From assembly GCA_019218315.1 (NCBI GenBank), contig JAHUUI010000005.1, positions 1 to 64,000 on the forward strand: DNA of 64,000 nt. The letters are read 5' to 3'. This DNA comes from Cardiobacteriaceae bacterium TAE3-ERU3 (lineage in GTDB: Bacteria; Pseudomonadota; Gammaproteobacteria; Cardiobacteriales; Cardiobacteriaceae). The position numbers and the translations under genes are program-made. How positions within the stretch are numbered: position 1 is the first letter of the stretch; every line of letters starts with the position of its first letter. Under the pieces are notes generated by a model. It ran no database searches and had not been told where the DNA came from. It saw only the letters and a list, made by a program, of their open reading frames with translations. Shown here piece after piece: positions 1 through 12,099 of this stretch.

Positions 1-59
1 TTTGTGTGTTTTTCATGAATTCTTCCTGAGTATAAAAGCAGCTCCAACAATACTACATG

Positions 60-80
60 ATATGTTGATATACAACATAT
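60..80. promoter_or_regulatory. Palindromic operator candidate upstream of HTH regulator
   Basis: A perfect inverted repeat, ATATGTTG-N5-CAACATAT, lies about 60 bases before the start of the HTH regulator at 143. Phage-repressor-like XRE proteins commonly bind such dyads in their own promoters, so autoregulation is the simplest reading. Binding is inferred only. Confidence 0.45.
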
Positions 81-142
81 TGAGGTGTTCATTTAAAAAG
101 TTCAATAAGCGACTCTACATGTTTTACTGAGAGAGTCTTTCA

Positions 143-499
143 ATGAGTGCCAATGATCTGAACCAGAGGATTGGACAGCGCATAGCCGTGCAGCGTTTAA
201 AAGTAGGTATGACGCAAGAGGACGTTAGCAAAGCTCTAGGGATGAATAATGAATCTATCTCACGCTTAGAGCGAGGTGCGGTTGCAGCATCAGTTCCGCG
301 CCTGATGGAATTGGCCGAATTGTTTGGTTGTAAAACCGGGGATTTTTTCCTGGACCAAAGTACGCTTCTGCAAGATCAGGCGGCAGAGATTCAAGAGCTA
401 TTAAATCGTGTTAGCCCCAATGCAAGACGGCATCTCGTTGAACAGTTGCGGCACTCAGTTGAATGGATCGAAAAGTATGAGTCACAACTACGTAAGTAG
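143..499 (+). CDS. XRE-family HTH transcriptional regulator
   Basis: A 118-residue protein with a Cro/CI-type helix-turn-helix in its first 70 residues (RIGQRIAVQRLKVGMTQEDV, then a recognition helix around NESISRLERG). A charged C-terminal tail of about 45 residues follows and could mediate dimerisation. It is a probable DNA-binding repressor in the cytoplasm. An AGAGAG-like ribosome site precedes the ATG. A palindrome at 60-80 is a plausible operator. It sits in the accessory island, rightward, next to a second small HTH gene. The regulated target is unknown. Confidence 0.85.
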   Translation: MSANDLNQRIGQRIAVQRLKVGMTQEDVSKALGMNNESISRLERGAVAASVPRLMELAELFGCKTGDFFLDQSTLLQDQAAEIQELLNRVSPNARRHLVEQLRHSVEWIEKYESQLRK

Positions 500-617
500 A
501 TCGAGAGAAACAATGACTACAAGATTCGAAGTCTATAATCTCATACATTGAATCGATAGCTCCATGGATAGCTAATATAATACTTACTCCTCTTGCCGAC
601 TGTAGAGGAGCTCGTAG

Positions 618-901: not shown

Positions 902-1540
902 TTAATCTTCCATATATGAATTAAGCAGCTCCTCCAGTGCACTACCATCAACCCTTATCAAATTAGGCACGTAATTGCTGTATACCGTAAACAGCATTTT
1001 TGTGGATACATGCCCCATCTGCTTGGCAATCCACTCCGGGTTTTCCCCGGAAGCCAGCCATAGTGTTGCGGCAGTATGGCGTGTTTGATAGGCACGACGG
1101 CGTTCCAAGCCGGCTCTTTCAAGCAATGGATACCACACATTTCTATTGACGTTGTGATACTTCAGCGGGTTACCATGAGTATTGCAGAATACGAAGTCAG
1201 AACGGTTTTTGGTCACTTCCAATTGTCTTTTCATCGCATCATAAACAAAGCTGGACATCGTAATACTTCGATAAGATTGGTCATTTTTGGGCGGCGCCAT
1301 TTCGCCTTTGACGATGGTTTCACGAATATGAATCAGCCCATTATCAAGATCGACATATTTCCGCTTCAAGCCATCAATCTCGGCTGTACGCATGCCGGTA
1401 AAAATCCGTACGATATAGTAGTCACGATAATATTCCGGTGCTGCATCCAGCAACAAAGCTATTTCATCGAGTGAAAAAGGATGAATATCTGAATTTTGCT
1501 GCTTTAGCCGCTTGATCTTTCTATATTGGAATGATGTGAA
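902..1540 (-). pseudogene. Tyrosine recombinase, C-terminal catalytic fragment
   Basis: The leftward frame encodes only the catalytic half of a phage-type tyrosine recombinase and closely parallels residues of the full enzyme at 2810-4039. The GMRTAEIDGLKRKY block with Arg I, the YQTRHTAATLW block with Arg II, MGHVS and the nucleophile Tyr in LFTVYSNYV are all present. Without requiring an ATG, similarity extends to about 1540 (DIHPFSLDE upstream of the first ATG at 1456). The arm-binding and core-binding N-terminal domains are missing. It is best read as a truncated duplicate. A short expressed protein from 1456 cannot be excluded. Confidence 0.75.
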
Positions 1541-1602: not shown

Positions 1603-2175
1603 TTATCTGACGGTTAGTTCAGGGATCATCATCCAGAGTTCGGTGGTTAATTCCTCTATAACCACTTCGATACGATCCCAAGGCTTGTCCTTCAGTTTGT
1701 TGTGTATCCAGATCAGCAAGGCATCATTGTTCGTGTAATGATATGCAACCTTGAGATAGCTATTGAACCGTACCCAATGAGGGTATTCGATATTGTTCAG
1801 AATATTATTGCAAATACAGACCTCGGCGGTGGTATAGCCAAATAGTGGAGGTTCAAGATAATCCACTTCCTTCATGTTATGTCGTACCAGTCGTTGACGA
1901 AGTTCTTTTCTGTTTAACCATTCCTCCGGCAACATCCACATAAATGTCTTGCGCAGGTGCTCAGGGGTTAGTTGACGGTTTACCAGTTGATGGTCAGCCC
2001 AGATCATCAATGCTCTATGGTCATCGTAGTAAGAATCCACATCGAGATATGAGTGCAGTGTATGCAATGGTTCAATTTCGAATTCACGGATAATGTCATG
2101 GGCCATATCGATTGCTTGTTGAGACAAAATCAAAGGAACTTTGAGATTGTTTGATTGTGGGTTGGCGTAAATCAT
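1603..2175 (-). CDS. Unknown protein with internal duplication, in recombinase operon
   Basis: A 190-residue protein that I do not recognise. It contains two related units: about residues 42-90 (HSYLDVDSYYDDHRALMIW ... MLPEEW) and about 140-187 (NSYLKVAYHYTNNDALLIW ... MIPEL). Shared features are a Tyr-rich start, an ALxIW core and a closing (L/I)PE motif, so the gene arose by tandem duplication. No membrane segment or signal peptide is visible. Its ATG overlaps the stop of the preceding recombinase-like gene by ATGA, so the two are probably translationally coupled. Operon context suggests an accessory role in recombination or island maintenance, which is inference. Confidence 0.75.
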   Translation of the reverse strand: MIYANPQSNNLKVPLILSQQAIDMAHDIIREFEIEPLHTLHSYLDVDSYYDDHRALMIWADHQLVNRQLTPEHLRKTFMWMLPEEWLNRKELRQRLVRHNMKEVDYLEPPLFGYTTAEVCICNNILNNIEYPHWVRFNSYLKVAYHYTNNDALLIWIHNKLKDKPWDRIEVVIEELTTELWMMIPELTVR

Positions 2176-2813
2176 TTGTTCTCTCCAGAGAGTAATTCGG
2201 TTAAGTTGTCAGCAAGTAGTTGTTCAAAAGTGGTTGTTGCCGGTAAGACGTGTTTCATTTCGATGCCGGAGGGTTCAAGACCTAATTGCGCCTGAATCCA
2301 TTTGCGATCTTTCCCCTCACTTTCCCATAACGCTACGGCTGTGCGGCGGGACTGGTAGCATTTGCAATGTGGCATACCTACAGACTCTAGTAGGGGTAAC
2401 CAGATGTGCCGATAAACATAGATATGATTAAGAGGACGACCTTGGCTACTACAAAATACAAACTCGGATTTGTCCTTGGTCATATCTATTTGCCGCAGGA
2501 ATGCCCCACGTGTTACTTGAGACATCACTATGTTCCGTTTACAAAAGCTGTCAGCTGGAACTGACTTGCCATTGGTATAAAGTTCACGAACCCTGATGAT
2601 GTTCCGATCAAGGTCAATGTGCTCATGTTTCAGCCCATGAATTTCTGATGAGCGCATGCCAGTCATGAAGCGCACAACGTAGTAATCGCGAAAGTCCGGT
2701 CGTACTGCATTAATCAATTTGAGTACATCATTTGCTGAGAGTGGCTGTTCAACACTTTGGGTTTTTGCCGATGATCTACGCTGCTTGCGCTGTTGATTGC
2801 TGTAATTTTTCAT
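2172..2813 (-). CDS. Catalytically degenerate tyrosine recombinase homologue
   Basis: A 213-residue homologue of the catalytic domain of the neighbouring integrase. Arg I survives in GMRSSEIHGLKHEH and Arg II in YQSRRTAVALW. The MGH block is replaced by LGLEPSG, and the region that should carry the Tyr nucleophile reads EMKHVLPATTT. It therefore cannot perform the standard reaction. A lysine/arginine-rich N-terminus of about 20 residues replaces the arm and core-binding domains. Its start overlaps the stop of the full integrase (ATGA) and its stop overlaps the next start, so it is retained in a coupled operon. It may be a regulator or architectural partner, or a decaying copy. Confidence 0.8.
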   Translation of the reverse strand: MKNYSNQQRKQRRSSAKTQSVEQPLSANDVLKLINAVRPDFRDYYVVRFMTGMRSSEIHGLKHEHIDLDRNIIRVRELYTNGKSVPADSFCKRNIVMSQVTRGAFLRQIDMTKDKSEFVFCSSQGRPLNHIYVYRHIWLPLLESVGMPHCKCYQSRRTAVALWESEGKDRKWIQAQLGLEPSGIEMKHVLPATTTFEQLLADNLTELLSGENK

Positions 2814-4039
2814 ACAAATAACTCCTCTAATTCAGATTTTTCTACAGTACTGTCTTCATGCCATGTACTCGTGTTTTGGGTTAGGTTCTTGGTTATCAGC
2901 GCTTCAAGTGCGCTACCATCTTTTCTAACAAGGTTGGGGACAAATCGACTGTAAACCGTAAAGAGCATGACGGTCGTTGCATGCCCCATCTGTCTTGCGA
3001 TCCATTCAGGATTCTCCCCGGCTGCGAGCCATAAGGTAGCCGCTGTATGTCTCGTTTGATAAGGTCTGCGATAGTCCATTCTTAAAGATCGCAACAGTGG
3101 AGCCCAAACTCTCTTGTTCACATTGTGATAGTCAAGGGGAGAGCCATTTTCCGCACAAAAGACAAACTCCGACTTTCCTTCCGTTGCTTTCATCTGTCTA
3201 GTAAGAGCTGCATGGACCATATTCGACATGACAATGTCCCTTCGAGACCCTTTGGTTTTGGTTCGCCCCATCTTGCCACGAACTTTAGATTCACGAATCA
3301 TGATGAGACGTTTATCCAGATCAACGTACTTCCTTTTGAGACCGTCAATTTCACCCGTACGCATACCTGTAAAAAAACGTACGATGAAGTAGTCTCTGTA
3401 ATCCTTTCGAACGTTATTAATCAGCAGCATAACTTCGTCCAAAGAAAATGGATGAATGTCCTCAGGAACCACTTCGAGAGACTTTATCTCCTTGTAAGGG
3501 CATTCGAAGTGGTAGCGCTCTGCGGCCTCACGTAGTATCATCCCCAGTGAAGTCATAATCTGATTGATCCGTGACTTTGACAGTGACTTGTTGGTACTAC
3601 CGTAGCGAACTTTGGCGAGCGAGGTACGGAAGGCGAACAGGTCCTGTCTTTGTATTGTGCTAACATCTTGCGTCCCAAAAGCTGGTAGCAGATATTTATC
3701 GAGTATCTGAGTTATCTTTTCCTGATAACTAAATTTCCACTCAATCTCCATCTCAGAGAACCACAGGGAAGCAAATGCAGCGAATGTCGGTGTCTTGCTT
3801 GTTGCTGCTTCTTTCCTATTTCGGATCGTCTCAAATTCTTTGATTTTTTGGCTTTTGGGGAAGTAGCGCTCGTAATTAAACGTGCCCAGTAAAAGCTCCG
3901 CATCCATTTTTTCCAAAATAGCAGCCAGTTTTTTGCGATTTGCCGGAGTGTCTGCTAGATTTGTTGTCTCCCGGCACCGCTTGTTGAGATAGCGAAAATC
4001 CACTATCAGCTTTCCGTGTCTTTCTCTTATTCCAGACAT
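2810..4039 (-). CDS. Tyrosine site-specific recombinase (integrase), full length
   Basis: A 409-residue integrase. The N-terminus (MSGIRERHGKLIVDFRYLNK) matches the DUF3596-type arm-DNA-binding domain, followed by a SAM-like core-binding domain at about 85-190 and the catalytic domain. Arg227 lies in GMRTGEI, Arg II in YQTRHTAATLW (Tyr replaces the usual first His of HxxR), the His in MGHAT, and the nucleophile is Tyr363 in LFTVYSRFV. A strong AAGGAGG site precedes the ATG. It heads a leftward operon with a small HTH protein 17 bases upstream. It is the likely integrase of the island that ends near 9678. Confidence 0.92.
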   Translation of the reverse strand: MSGIRERHGKLIVDFRYLNKRCRETTNLADTPANRKKLAAILEKMDAELLLGTFNYERYFPKSQKIKEFETIRNRKEAATSKTPTFAAFASLWFSEMEIEWKFSYQEKITQILDKYLLPAFGTQDVSTIQRQDLFAFRTSLAKVRYGSTNKSLSKSRINQIMTSLGMILREAAERYHFECPYKEIKSLEVVPEDIHPFSLDEVMLLINNVRKDYRDYFIVRFFTGMRTGEIDGLKRKYVDLDKRLIMIRESKVRGKMGRTKTKGSRRDIVMSNMVHAALTRQMKATEGKSEFVFCAENGSPLDYHNVNKRVWAPLLRSLRMDYRRPYQTRHTAATLWLAAGENPEWIARQMGHATTVMLFTVYSRFVPNLVRKDGSALEALITKNLTQNTSTWHEDSTVEKSELEELFV

Positions 4040-4056
4040 AAATGACCTCCTTAGGT

Positions 4057-4269
4057 CTATTGAAGTGCAATGGCATTAATGCCACTTTCGTAAGAACGCA
4101 TGTCCTTCTCGATTTGTTCCCAAATGAAAAGAATTTTGCGTCCGCCAAAAGGTCGAACATAGTGAACCCCCTCGATTAATACGCTATCCTTTAATTGATT
4201 ACGGATTGTGCGTACATCGTATTTGATGCGTTGAGAGAGTTCTTGCGTTGTCAGGTAGGTAGCGTTCAT
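4057..4269 (-). CDS. Small HTH DNA-binding protein, excisionase/AlpA-like
   Basis: A 70-residue protein with a winged-helix-like start (YLTTQELSQRIKYDVRTIRN) followed by a basic, aromatic turn (VRPFGGRKILFIWEQIEKDM). Short proteins of this shape serve as excisionases (directionality factors) or AlpA-like activators beside tyrosine integrases. It lies 17 bases upstream of the integrase on the same strand, consistent with one transcript. The promoter region is shared with a divergent XRE regulator. The excisionase role is inferred from size and position. Confidence 0.75.
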   Translation of the reverse strand: MNATYLTTQELSQRIKYDVRTIRNQLKDSVLIEGVHYVRPFGGRKILFIWEQIEKDMRSYESGINAIALQ

Positions 4270-4303: not shown

Positions 4304-4385
4304 CATTTGACTATCCAGTGAGTAAATTATGACCCATTTAGGGATTCTAAGCAACATTAAGCTATACAGAATAGCATTAAGTTAT
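4304..4385. promoter_or_regulatory. Repeated operator-like motif between divergent regulator and integrase operon
   Basis: Three related copies of an 11-base motif occur in the divergent intergenic region: CATTTGACTAT at 4304, CATTAAGCTAT at 4355 and CATTAAGTTAT at 4375. The last two are exactly 20 bases apart, about two helical turns. They lie just before the XRE gene start at 4395, suggesting binding by that regulator. Confidence 0.35.
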
Positions 4386-4394
4386 GGAGAGAAT

Positions 4395-4613
4395 ATGGTA
4401 AAGTGTAATCTTTACAGATACATGGGCGAAAATAGGCTTAAAATAATTGACGTCGCAGAAGCTACAGGGCTGAACAGAAGCACAATTGCACGCCTCTATA
4501 ATGATGAAGCAAAACGTTTTGAAGCTGAGGTATTGGAAAAACTATGCCAATATTTTGATATCTCAGTTGGTGATCTAATTGAATATGTTCCTGATGAACC
4601 CAATGTTAAGTAA
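4395..4613 (+). CDS. XRE-family HTH regulator
   Basis: The protein is 72 residues from the ATG at 4395, chosen because GGAGAG sits directly before it and homologues begin at MVKCNLYRYMGE. An upstream in-frame ATG at 4329 has no good ribosome site. The sequence DVAEATGLNRSTIARLYND is a Cro/CI-like helix-turn-helix and the C-terminus (YFDISVGDLIEYVPD) is typical of small YozG-type regulators. It is divergent from the excisionase-integrase operon and is the natural candidate for its repressor. Confidence 0.82.
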   Translation: MVKCNLYRYMGENRLKIIDVAEATGLNRSTIARLYNDEAKRFEAEVLEKLCQYFDISVGDLIEYVPDEPNVK

Positions 4614-4741: not shown

Positions 4742-5014
4742 ATGAAAAAAATTAAGATACCAATTGTTATATTTAAAGATGACAATTGCATGAATTATGG
4801 TGTTGTTATCCCCGATGTACCAGGTGTGTTCCCAGTCGGAGATACGATCGAAGATGCTATTGAAGACAGCAAGAGTGCACTTACTGCGCATCTAGAATGT
4901 ATGAAGAATGAAAGAATTCCACTCGATCTAACAAAACTCAGGAGTATCGAAGACTTGACGGCAACTCCTGATTTCTCTGATGCCTTGTGCTGGACGATCA
5001 TTGAAATGGGATAA
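4742..5014 (+). CDS. hicB: HicB-family antitoxin-like protein, orphan
   Basis: A 90-residue protein whose first half (MKKIKIPIVIFKDDNCMNYG, then VVIPDVPGVFPVGDTIEDAI) matches the partial RNase-H-like fold of HicB antitoxins, with the expected helix SKSALTAHLECM after it. HicA mRNA-interferase toxins of about 60 residues normally sit immediately upstream. The 126 bases between the previous stop and this start hold no such frame. It is thus an orphan HicB-like gene. The C-terminus lacks an obvious DNA-binding domain. Confidence 0.72.
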   Translation: MKKIKIPIVIFKDDNCMNYGVVIPDVPGVFPVGDTIEDAIEDSKSALTAHLECMKNERIPLDLTKLRSIEDLTATPDFSDALCWTIIEMG

Positions 5015-5076: not shown

Positions 5077-5176
5077 ATGAGATGCCCAGTATACGGAATG
5101 GGAGAACTGCAGCCTGACACTATGGACGAAGAATAAACCCTACAAAGGTGAACTCCTTATTATCCCAAGTGTACTA
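5077..5176 (+). pseudogene. MqsA/YgiT-type antitoxin pseudogene, 5' part
   Basis: After AAGGAG the frame reads MRCPVYGMGELQPDTMDEE, which resembles the first zinc knuckle of YgiT/MqsA-type antitoxins (normally CPxCG), with the second Cys changed to Tyr. It then meets TAA. One extra C shifts the frame. Correcting it gives TYKGELLIIPSVL up to the element boundary at 5176. The remainder resumes at 7477. The gene was broken by the mobile unit at 5177-7474 and also carries point damage. Confidence 0.7.
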
Positions 5177-5383: not shown

Positions 5384-6517
5384 TCATACTTGACCGTTTT
5401 TTACCAATTCTCCCCACTCCTTTTCACTCCTTACCAAAAAATCTGTATATTTTTCATCAAATACATTCATATTCCTATAAGATCCTTTGGTAAAAAATTG
5501 TTTAATATCCTGAGGTGTGATAGAAATAAGTTCTTGATCTATTTTAAATATTTCCTTTGCAAAATAGTATCTTGCTATATCATAGAGTAAAAATGTGATG
5601 CCTACGTTAATCTCCTCTTTATGCTCATCATCTAACTCTAATCCTCTAAAATCAGTATAAAGACTTCCATTGTGTACAACTTTGTTTCTCACAAGAGTGA
5701 CCCAACGAAGCTTTTTATAGGAATCTTCATCATCATCTTCGGGATATAGATCATGTGCAATAAGAAAGCTTTTAAGTTTTTCTATTGCTGGCAACGAGTC
5801 ATCTATTCTTACTCTTTTTTGGATAAACTCTGAAATGAAGTCATACTCAGCACCTAACTTACTGAGTATGTCTTTTGTGCTATCCTTTATTTGTTCCTTT
5901 ACTTCATTCATATCAATCATTCTATTATCATAAACACTCTTCTTATTTTTTCTACACCATTTATCATAAATAGAATTAATAATGCTATTTACGTAAAAAG
6001 AAAGAGCAAGGAGATCGTTGGTACGGCCTGCTGTCACAATGTTATAGAATTGATTAGTTAAGCTAGAATCTTTTAGTTTTTGAAATGCAATATCTAAGTC
6101 TATTGAATTAAAAAAAAAGAAATCTCTTTTTATTATCCGGGTGAAATAGCAAAGAGAATTTTCTCCATCAAGATCACCCTCAAGGAAAACATTTCTCCCT
6201 GTAGCAAAAGATAGAAATAATATGAAATCATCAATAGATGTTCTTTCCAATCCTTTCCTATATATTGTAGAGGATTTAATATCCTCCTTTGGTACATGGA
6301 GTGTTGCAGTTTCAACGACCTCACCTGGTTTCGTATCTATCTTTCTCGTATAAGCTTCACCATCAATATTAATGCTGTGCTTCCGCCCACCATTGTTTTT
6401 TAATTTTTCGATATTTTTAGATTGTTTATCATTGACAGAGATACGATACTTTCCAATTGTAAACTCTTGTTTACCTGGGAAACCAGATTCAAAATTATAC
6501 AAGGCAAATTCTTCCAT
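5384..6517 (-). CDS. HEPN-domain protein, possible RNase or defence effector
   Basis: A 377-residue, AT-rich gene. The C-terminal helical region contains RNKVVHNG, the R-x4-H motif (Arg277, His282) that marks the HEPN superfamily. Many of these are metal-independent RNases in toxin-antitoxin and anti-phage systems, while Apea-type members are less well characterised. The N-terminal 130 residues are beta-rich and unassigned. No membrane segment is seen. GAAGAGAG precedes the ATG. It is the only passenger gene of the mobile unit at 5177-7474 and has a repeat array in its promoter. Its own antitoxin, if any, is not visible. Confidence 0.7.
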   Translation of the reverse strand: MEEFALYNFESGFPGKQEFTIGKYRISVNDKQSKNIEKLKNNGGRKHSINIDGEAYTRKIDTKPGEVVETATLHVPKEDIKSSTIYRKGLERTSIDDFILFLSFATGRNVFLEGDLDGENSLCYFTRIIKRDFFFFNSIDLDIAFQKLKDSSLTNQFYNIVTAGRTNDLLALSFYVNSIINSIYDKWCRKNKKSVYDNRMIDMNEVKEQIKDSTKDILSKLGAEYDFISEFIQKRVRIDDSLPAIEKLKSFLIAHDLYPEDDDEDSYKKLRWVTLVRNKVVHNGSLYTDFRGLELDDEHKEEINVGITFLLYDIARYYFAKEIFKIDQELISITPQDIKQFFTKGSYRNMNVFDEKYTDFLVRSEKEWGELVKNGQV

Positions 6518-6679: not shown

Positions 6680-7066
6680 TTATCGGAGTGCCATAATTGT
6701 CGCTGCCAAATAGATATTTGCCGCAAAAGATGCATCTGTCTTTTCTGTACGCATCGCTATCTTGCGGTACTCTTTCAGGTTACAGAAAAAGTTTTCGACC
6801 AGGTGACGCCACTTGTACATATGCCGATCATAGATTCGTTGTATTTTCCTGCTACTTCTTGATGGTATAACTGCCTGAGCACCTCTTTCATCAAGTTCTT
6901 TCAACAGCCAGTTTGCATCAAATGCTTTGTCCGCAAGTAAACTGCCAAATTCTCTATCTTTGATTAATGGCTCAACGCCCAAAATGTCATGACGCTGCCC
7001 TGGCAGTAATGTGAAAGAAACCAAATTGCCCAACCCATCAACTAACACCATGATTTTTGTCGTCAT
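6680..7066 (-). CDS. IS5-family transposase, C-terminal frame (orfB)
   Basis: A 128-residue frame with the second half of a DDE transposase: MTTKIMVLVDGLGN, the second Asp in ADKAFDAN, and the region with the catalytic Glu near VENFFCNLKEYRKIAMR. It overlaps the upstream frame by 4 bases (ATGA). Full transposase needs a -1 shift at the AAAA-G9 run (7102-7114). Reading on in this frame from the run gives ASSQAIGKSKEGMTTKI, the sequence expected for intact IS427-group transposases. Confidence 0.85.
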   Translation of the reverse strand: MTTKIMVLVDGLGNLVSFTLLPGQRHDILGVEPLIKDREFGSLLADKAFDANWLLKELDERGAQAVIPSRSSRKIQRIYDRHMYKWRHLVENFFCNLKEYRKIAMRTEKTDASFAANIYLAATIMALR

Positions 7067-7467
7067 GCCTTCTTTTGACTTGCCAATGGCCTGACTTGAA
7101 GCCCCCCCCCTTTTGCGCCTTGTCCCAGCCGGTGGACTTTAACGATGGTTCCGTCAATCATTGCATATTCCATACCGGGCTCACCGCATAATGCTTCAAA
7201 AATACAGGCAAAACGGTCGGCTTCAACCCATCTGCGATAGCGCTTGAACACACTATTCCATTTACCAAATTCTTTGGGCAAGTCTCGCCACGGGCTGCCT
7301 GTACGGATAACCCACAGTACTGCTTCGATAAATAGTCTGTTATCTTTCGCACTCCTGCCTACATCCGAGACCTTGCCTGCGCATAGTGGCTCTATCTTTG
7401 CCCATTGGGCATCACTCAATATCAATCTACTCATGCGAACTATTATCCATGAACAGACATATGTCAA
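7063..7467 (-). CDS. IS5-family transposase, N-terminal frame (orfA)
   Basis: The frame encodes the N-terminal helical domain (LSDAQWAKIEPLC) and the first catalytic Asp in YAMIDGTIVKVHR, then GQGAKGGG, after which it leaves the conserved frame and ends in LQVRPLASQKKA. The true start is probably the ATG of MSRLILSDAQW at 7434. The switch point is a homopolymer of nine G preceded by AAAA on the coding strand, a slippery site suited to programmed -1 frameshifting or transcriptional slippage. Confidence 0.85.
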   Translation of the reverse strand: MTYVCSWIIVRMSRLILSDAQWAKIEPLCAGKVSDVGRSAKDNRLFIEAVLWVIRTGSPWRDLPKEFGKWNSVFKRYRRWVEADRFACIFEALCGEPGMEYAMIDGTIVKVHRLGQGAKGGGLQVRPLASQKKA

Positions 7468-9888: not shown

Positions 9889-12099
9889 AACCTTGGCCAA
9901 GGTGAAAGCAACGACAACGCACACATCAGTGACGTTGGCGGACAAGGAGGATTTAGCAAATCAGTTGGCTATGGTACAGACAGCGACAGCCGTAGCAGCA
10001 CTACCCGCGCCGGTATAGCCACCGCTAATCTCACTGTGACAGATGATGCTGCACAACGCCGACTAACCGGGCAAAGTGCTGCTGAAGCAGCCAAAGCCGC
10101 ACAGATCGGCATCACCACAGAAACCGCTAAAGCCAACAGCGGCGCCCTGTTTAACACTTTTGACGCTGAAAAAGTCCAGCAGGACATCGACACGCAAATT
10201 GCGGTAACCAAAGAGTTTGGCAAAATTGCGCCGAAAATTGTTGCAGATGTGGCAGACAGTTTGGGCAATACGCAGGAATACGAAATAAAGTTACAGTTAA
10301 AAGGCGATCTTGAGAGCTTGGTTGCAAATAGTAGCGACCCGGAAAAACGAGCACTTGCACAAGCAGAACTTAATAAAGTAAATACCTATCTTGTTGAGAA
10401 CAAAGCAAGCTACGACTTATGGAAAGAAGGAGGGATTGCTCGGGGCATTGCCCAAGGTGGAGTTGGCGGTTTAATGACAGGTGATTTTGGTGGTGCCGCA
10501 GCCGGTTTCGGGACATCACTTGCAGCCCCTGTACTGAATGACCTTAGTGGAAAACATGGTGGTTCAGTTATCAATACCTTCGCCAGTGCAGCCATCGGTG
10601 GTGCTCTTGGCGGGAATATGGGCGGTGCAGTGGTTGGTACTAACGTTGACGCAAATAATCGCCAGTTGCATCCCGTGGAAATAGACATCATCAATACTCA
10701 TGCCAAGGACTTCGCACTTAAGCAAGGTATCAGTGAAGAAGAAGCAAGAAGTGAATTGGCATCAGCTGCCCTATCACAAGTAGACGCAGAATACAGTTAC
10801 CTAATTAGTGATAAGCAGAATTATCGCGATGCACAGGCATTCCTGAAAACTATTGGTGCGGGAGAATCTTTTAAGGACGACTACGGACGGACACAAACAC
10901 TCTTTGATGAAAGAGGTAAAGCAAATTTCTATGACTATGCGATGAATACAGAGTATGTCTATGGCGACAACCCATTCTATGACAACATCAAAGCGCATGC
11001 CCCAGCGTTTGCGGGGCACCTGAATAAAGAAATATTGTGGAAGGCCGGTAGTTCTCATCTTGCTGATACGGTAAATCAGCCTGAAACCGTGAAAAAACTC
11101 GTCTTGAATAACATCATTGAAGGCAGAACCAAAATCGTCGATGAATTGACTGATAATCGTAAGCGTGCAGAGAAAGAACATGGTTGGGAAAAAGAAAGTG
11201 ATATTTCGGTTCCATTGATTGGTGATCTCGGATACAAAATTAGCGGTATTAGACGGGCTGAAGTCAGTGATGAACAAAATCGACAAAGAGTGAGCTTACA
11301 GAGTATCAGTACCTTTTTGGATAATAGCTATGCAGGTATTTATAGCGCCACTGAATCAGATTTAACGTCCAAGGAGCGCAAACACTATCAAAGTGCAGGC
11401 AATTTACTGAGTGGATTTGAAGCACTCGCAGCCATTGATGCAACTGTTGCCATGACTGGTAACTTAGGTAAGAATAAAACCGTTATTACAAAAGGTATCA
11501 GACAAGGTACCCAAGAAGCCAAAAATACCTTCAAGGAAGCCATAAACAGAGGCTGAGATGGTCGTCTTGGAGAGTATAAATTTAATCCTGAAGATGGAAC
11601 GTTTATAGGCACCAGGGGAGGAAAGCTCATCAATACCGGTGTTAAAGACACCGTAACTGGCGACTTTATTTTCCAACGTATTAATGCTCAAGGTCGACCT
11701 TATGGTAACTACCTTACGGTTAATGCAGATGGAATACAAAACTACCGTGTTAGCAAGCCTACAGGACAAAAGGGAAATAGTGACCAACCCCATGGAAACT
11801 CGTTAGCATATCAGGGAGAAACGCATGTTTATGCAATCCGCGGTGAGGACGGCATTTACAAGATTGGCGAAAGTACACAAGGCATGAATCAGTATGGCCA
11901 GTCCATTCGCGGCGAAGCGCAGGCTCAGGCCTTGCGTGAGCAAACGGGTGAATTTTTTTGGTCAGAAATACGGAAAAATTTTCCAAATAAAAGAGAAGGA
12001 GTTTCCTATCAGGATGCAATCCGTGACCGTTATCGTCGTTTATTTGGTGATGACAAACTACCCGGTAACCTTGAACATTTGAGAGGTAAAAAGAAATGA
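9889..12099 (+). pseudogene. 5'-truncated CdiA/filamentous-haemagglutinin toxin with in-frame TGA
   Basis: One reading frame runs from after a stop at 9886 to 12099, broken only by TGA at 11554-11556. The start (GFSKSVGYGTDSDSRSSTTR) and the glycine/alanine-rich segments match the C-terminal third of two-partner-secretion adhesins/CdiA. The several-kilobase N-terminus with signal and TPS domain is absent. After the TGA the frame continues to a tip, HVYAIRGEDGIYKIGEST ... RDRYRRLFGD, that resembles a GIY-YIG-like nuclease. The tip ends in ATGA overlap with an immunity-like gene. Both lesions mean no functional effector is made. Confidence 0.7.

Follow-up and report, generated by a model that had tools for sequence, protein, structure and literature searches.

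A recombinase gene that lacks catalytic residues and lies directly behind the gene of an intact integrase raises the question of whether a mobile element has kept a dead copy of its own enzyme as a working part or only carries it as debris. This question was addressed in Cardiobacteriaceae bacterium TAE3-ERU3, using a window of 64,000 nucleotides, which is the whole stretch of DNA analyzed (positions 1 to 64,000 of contig JAHUUI010000005.1). An earlier note on this DNA had described an operon of an excisionase-like gene, a full tyrosine recombinase, a second recombinase without the His and Tyr positions, and a duplicated protein, and the four ORFs were found on the minus strand where it had placed them (Table 1). 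A literature search returned no description of such an operon, in which an active int is accompanied by a dead int copy.

Table 1. Features of the operon and of the adjoining element remnants in the window.
Feature	Position	Strand	Description
118-aa HTH gene	143..499	+	Recurs with the 3' part of int3 where contig C3 begins; left over from an older element
int3	902..1528	-	N-terminally truncated recombinase fragment; catalytic residues intact; without ATG start and arm-binding domain; relic
acc	1603..2175	-	190 aa; two tandem copies of the ~85-aa protein encoded after int in relatives
ORF2	2172..2813	-	213-aa predicted dead recombinase paralogue, catalytic domain only; PF00589 E 4e-11
int1	2810..4039	-	Complete tyrosine recombinase; PF12167, PF14659, PF00589; all catalytic residues present in the alignment
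xis	4057..4269	-	70-aa HTH protein, excisionase-like; without curated family; almost all related loci have it directly upstream of int
HTH_26 regulator gene	4329..4613	+	Cro/C1-type, divergent; Pfam HTH_26 E 8e-20; position common to nearly all related loci

The int1 product was complete, as had been proposed, with Arm-DNA-bind_2, SAM-like (core-binding), and Phage_integrase domains, and it carries the only Arm-DNA-bind_2 domain in the host genome. In Pfam, ORF2 showed the Phage_integrase domain alone, and its first ~17 residues are strongly basic. The genes were thought to be joined by ATGA overlaps, which holds for the 4-nt overlaps of int1/ORF2 (2813/2810) and ORF2/acc (2175/2172), but not for xis and int1, which are separated by a 17-nt gap. 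SD-like AGGAG and GGAG motifs precede the starts of ORF2 and acc, respectively, by ~7-8 nt. The product of the divergent HTH_26 gene is likely the repressor of the xis/int1/ORF2/acc operon. A HicB-like antitoxin gene (4742-5014) adjoins this HTH gene, and no HicA was noticed beside it.

No att repeats were found flanking the operon; the only repeats were the homology between int1 and int3 and one of 17 nt close to an insertion sequence. The copies of the 17-nt repeat at 5176 and 6665 enclose the gene of a 377-aa protein (5384-6517) with no Pfam or PADLOC match, and one copy adjoins IS4/5-type transposase ORFs at 6680-7467. At 10036-11556, a 506-aa protein without a Pfam match looks, from its sequence, like the terminal part of a large haemagglutinin/contact-dependent inhibition protein.

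The catalytic positions were compared in a 101-row recombinase alignment. ORF2 kept both Arg residues, and its Lys was changed to Ala, the His of RHT to Arg, and the His of GH to Leu, while the Tyr was absent together with the helix segment that carries it. The Lys and both His were present in 100/100 other rows and the Tyr in 99/100. The reported absence of His and Tyr was therefore confirmed, and the Lys was found to be lost too. The R-K-H-R-H/W pentad and nucleophilic Tyr of an active tyrosine recombinase are incomplete in ORF2 and, judged from its sequence, it is a catalytically dead recombinase paralogue in one operon with an intact island-type integrase. A hidden frameshift behind the missing Tyr segment was also considered; the other frames were read by eye and no Tyr motif was seen. 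In the recombinase tree, ORF2 stood on a long branch with no firm placement.

The losses were unevenly distributed. ORF2 retained 34 of 64 near-invariant positions and changed 30, with 17/23 retained in residues 196-300 versus 5/19 in residues 347-385 (int1 numbering; Fisher P 0.005). Mean identity of the N-part to 98 integrases was 0.41 for ORF2, 0.52 for int1, and 0.47 for int3; across residues 301-352, the corresponding values were 0.38, 0.75, and 0.71. The N-part of ORF2 is nearly as well conserved as that of a paralogue of active type, unlike its catalytic C-part. These contrasts indicate that the decay of ORF2 is centered on its catalytic part.

Despite these losses, ORF2 still matched the tyrosine recombinase catalytic domain by both profile and predicted fold. 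The model reached pLDDT ~90-98 across residues 21-180, with low confidence in the Tyr region, and its best solved-structure matches were the Tn1549 integrase (Z ~21), XerA, and lambda Int; the alignment underlying the model consists of active enzymes, and a recent relic would also score well. The recombinase-fold regulators MrpR/YopR and phi3T SroF appeared among the lower-ranked matches. In integrases, the C-terminal helix packs onto neighboring protomers, and a C-terminal helix (196-210) remains at the same place in the ORF2 model.

Related loci were surveyed in plasmids and in one genome per species. The module, a widespread one of integrative elements, recurred in ~100 loci as a divergent HTH_26 gene, xis, and an Arm-DNA-bind_2 integrase; mostly in Moraxellaceae, a small gene, here named acc, overlaps the stop codon of int or directly adjoins it. 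The window carries the same HTH/xis/int/acc arrangement, with ORF2 sitting between int1 and acc. In none of the ~100 loci did another recombinase gene separate int from acc. The combination of int, Tyr-less int, and a 190-aa gene, for which a neighborhood search had been suggested, had no other instance among them, and no full-length active counterpart was found at this place in relatives, where int runs straight into acc. In the flanks of these loci, the extra recombinases were one distant integrase on a viral contig and frame-broken int copies. No ORF2 orthologue was found among 96 relatives or among 369 genomes of the class, two sets that overlap; outside the host genome, ORF2 matched integrases with open frames of 401-486 aa. 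ORF2/acc was also considered as a phage or plasmid gene; among the matches listed from plasmids, viral contigs, and phages, there were only full or distant integrases and no ORF2-like short recombinase.

The loci of A. lwoffii pALWED3.4 and Psychrobacter resemble the window in gene order, divergent HTH gene, and acc homologue, and the pALWED3.4 copy is ~65% identical in xis and ~57% in int. In many relatives with the module, in Moraxellaceae and other gamma-proteobacteria, int likewise overlaps acc by ATGA or a few more bases, and AGGAG precedes acc. In contrast, a dead catalytic domain that separates int from acc, and a doubled acc, occur in the window only. A Moraxellaceae-type integrase module was also found in Streptomyces cinereus BMPS01000050.1 (locus L030), which is probably an assembly contamination.

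The acc gene follows int directly in 49/80 genome loci, and acc-bearing integrases belong mostly to Moraxellaceae, with a few other genera or lineages (loci L030-L080, L099, and L011, and the window). The claim of a duplicated protein held: the N and C halves matched each other (BLASTP E 5e-6), and a profile built from relatives alone matched both (N 2e-15, C 7e-6). The 190-aa protein thus appears to consist of two tandem copies of one acc domain. Since the base plan of relatives leads from int to acc without a second recombinase, the 190-aa protein is best read as a tandem acc duplication and ORF2 as an insertion that is apparently unique to this genome. No entry for acc was found in Pfam, PHROGs, or NCBIfam, and none in PADLOC. 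Its fold model was helical (pTM 0.52), and a fold-based identity was set aside with no usable PDB match, the best being a designed helical repeat (Z 6.9). A profile search of the class genome sample returned the window alone, with a 195-position model that is insensitive to single-domain copies. From its position, acc is probably a recombination co-factor. The survey defines acc as an unnamed ~85-aa integrase-coupled family without a database entry.

The sequence beyond acc holds further remnants; these, like the divergent HTH gene, were absent from the earlier note. Contig C3 begins with a repeat of window positions 1-548 at 93% and of 913-1233 at 90% (C3 1-1128, L007). Its int3 copy is truncated, carries a frameshift, and borders a chromosomal gene that reads as lyase-like. 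Both contigs open with the same sequence and contain the same HTH gene together with a truncated 3' part of int3, which suggests that one element is present twice, as old copies, and that the assembly broke at a repeat. The int3 fragment, its 90% copy on C3, and the doubled acc indicate that several elements of the same family, partly deleted, are stacked at this contig end.

We consider that ORF2 arose in a collapsed tandem of same-family elements, as a truncated second int that was retained as a non-cutting partner of int1, and we give this explanation about an even chance. The ancestral state would have been two int-acc units in tandem, each with translationally coupled int and acc. A deletion from the first acc into the second int would have removed that acc as well as the arm-binding and core-binding regions of the second int, leaving its catalytic domain coupled to int1 through the old int-to-acc signal of int1 (AGGAG...ATGA). 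The remaining acc, coupled to ORF2 in like manner, would have been doubled. A tandem int-acc history is the simplest one, because the SD-ATGA layout that starts acc in relatives starts ORF2 here and recurs at the ORF2 end for acc. ORF2 would afterwards have lost the Lys, both His, and the Tyr segment while keeping its coding capacity and the remaining fold. Probably translated with int1, it may touch int1 protomers without cutting, and so temper or help int1 at core sites.

This explanation as a whole is favored by the absence of a second recombinase from the module in ~100 loci, the position of acc directly behind int and the shared SD and overlap layout in relatives, the pattern of residues and constraint, the confident fold, and the adjacent recombinase debris. 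Counted against it is the missing core-binding domain, from which weak DNA binding is expected. The earlier note had suggested an architectural or regulatory subunit of the island integrase, a role for which ORF2 is a candidate. If functional, ORF2 would offer a natural case of a dead protomer encoded in the operon of an active relative, and a clean system for how non-cutting subunits tune tyrosine-recombinase synapses. A further step, which we regard as rather unlikely, is that the element converted its own second integrase copy into a non-cutting subunit supplied at a fixed ratio, setting the excision frequency in cis by a dominant-negative or architectural effect.

The main alternative, tentatively rated somewhat below retention, is that ORF2 is a passive relic: a divergent integrase left as a by-product of tandem-element recombination, truncated fairly recently, drifting without function, and open in frame by luck. 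ORF2 was found in this genome only among those searched. The neighboring copies are plainly debris, and in Acinetobacter elements acc is followed by a DUF1376 gene, which is not seen in the window, where int3 debris lies in that place. The earlier note would have been contradicted by homologues that were solely pseudogenes; int3 and its C3 copy are of that kind and keep this alternative alive, whereas ORF2 itself has no stop. Its 213 codons are free of stops and frameshifts in spite of 30 changed near-invariant positions, and it keeps its own SD and ATGA coupling. The branch lengths of ORF2 at codon positions 1/2/3 were 1.43/0.54/7.6 (third saturated), with the third fastest, and those of int1 were 0.39/0.15/6.4. 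Stops, frameshifts, and equal codon-position rates, the marks of a pseudogene relic, were not found, although constraint predating the catalytic loss is not separable in this comparison.

Free drift was simulated by mutating int1 neutrally until 34/64 near-invariant residues were left, in 2000 runs. The runs accumulated a mean of 4.1 stops, with zero stops in 2% (P 0.02) and an ORF2-like contrast of N and C losses in 1.3% (P 0.013). Both together occurred in 0/2000 runs, where the columns and the N/C split had been picked after the data were seen and third positions are saturated. The pattern of change in ORF2 therefore does not look like free drift. Part of the constraint may date from its time as an active integrase, and since no ORF2 orthologue was found in the genomes searched, selection after the loss is inseparable from that earlier selection. 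Together with the debris next to ORF2 and a fold model that would flatter a recent relic, this is counted against the non-cutting partner.

ORF2 could also act as a stand-alone DNA-binding regulator of the operon or the att site, similar to MrpR (YopR) of Bacillus prophage SPbeta, a master repressor that has lost recombinase function (PMC10516654). This precedent, the MrpR/YopR and SroF structures among the fold matches, and the basic N-terminal residues are in its favor. However, ORF2 is without the N-terminal core-binding domain, which leaves such a repressor little probability; a divergent HTH regulator, conserved in position among relatives, is already present at the operon, and sequence identity to MrpR is weak. 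We regard this role as improbable. That ORF2 and int3 each supply one half of an active split recombinase and so complement int1 is very improbable: int3 keeps its catalytic residues, but it has no ATG start, SD, or arm domain, and its C3 copy is frameshifted.

Among known proteins, the C-terminal fragment of the SSV1 integrase and the catalytic core of lambda Int, both found as fold matches, resemble ORF2 as domains without N-terminal domains. Unlike ORF2, they retain the catalytic residues. RIT elements (recombinases in trio), whose proteins belong to the simple-recombinase subgroups (PMC8138268), likewise carry several tyrosine recombinase genes with a common orientation. They consist of three complete simple recombinases, whereas the window has one complete arm-type integrase, int1, and catalytic-domain fragments in ORF2 and int3. 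MrpR and SroF share the tyrosine recombinase fold that is predicted for ORF2, and by its model ORF2 would also present a recombinase fold without catalytic residues. However, MrpR is a full-length protein that has retained Tyr and Lys, with only ~11% identity to ORF2 across the aligned region, whereas ORF2 consists of a catalytic domain alone and shares its operon with an active relative. Dead tyrosine recombinases that act as regulators are already known from MrpR; particular to this genome is the dead copy between int and acc.
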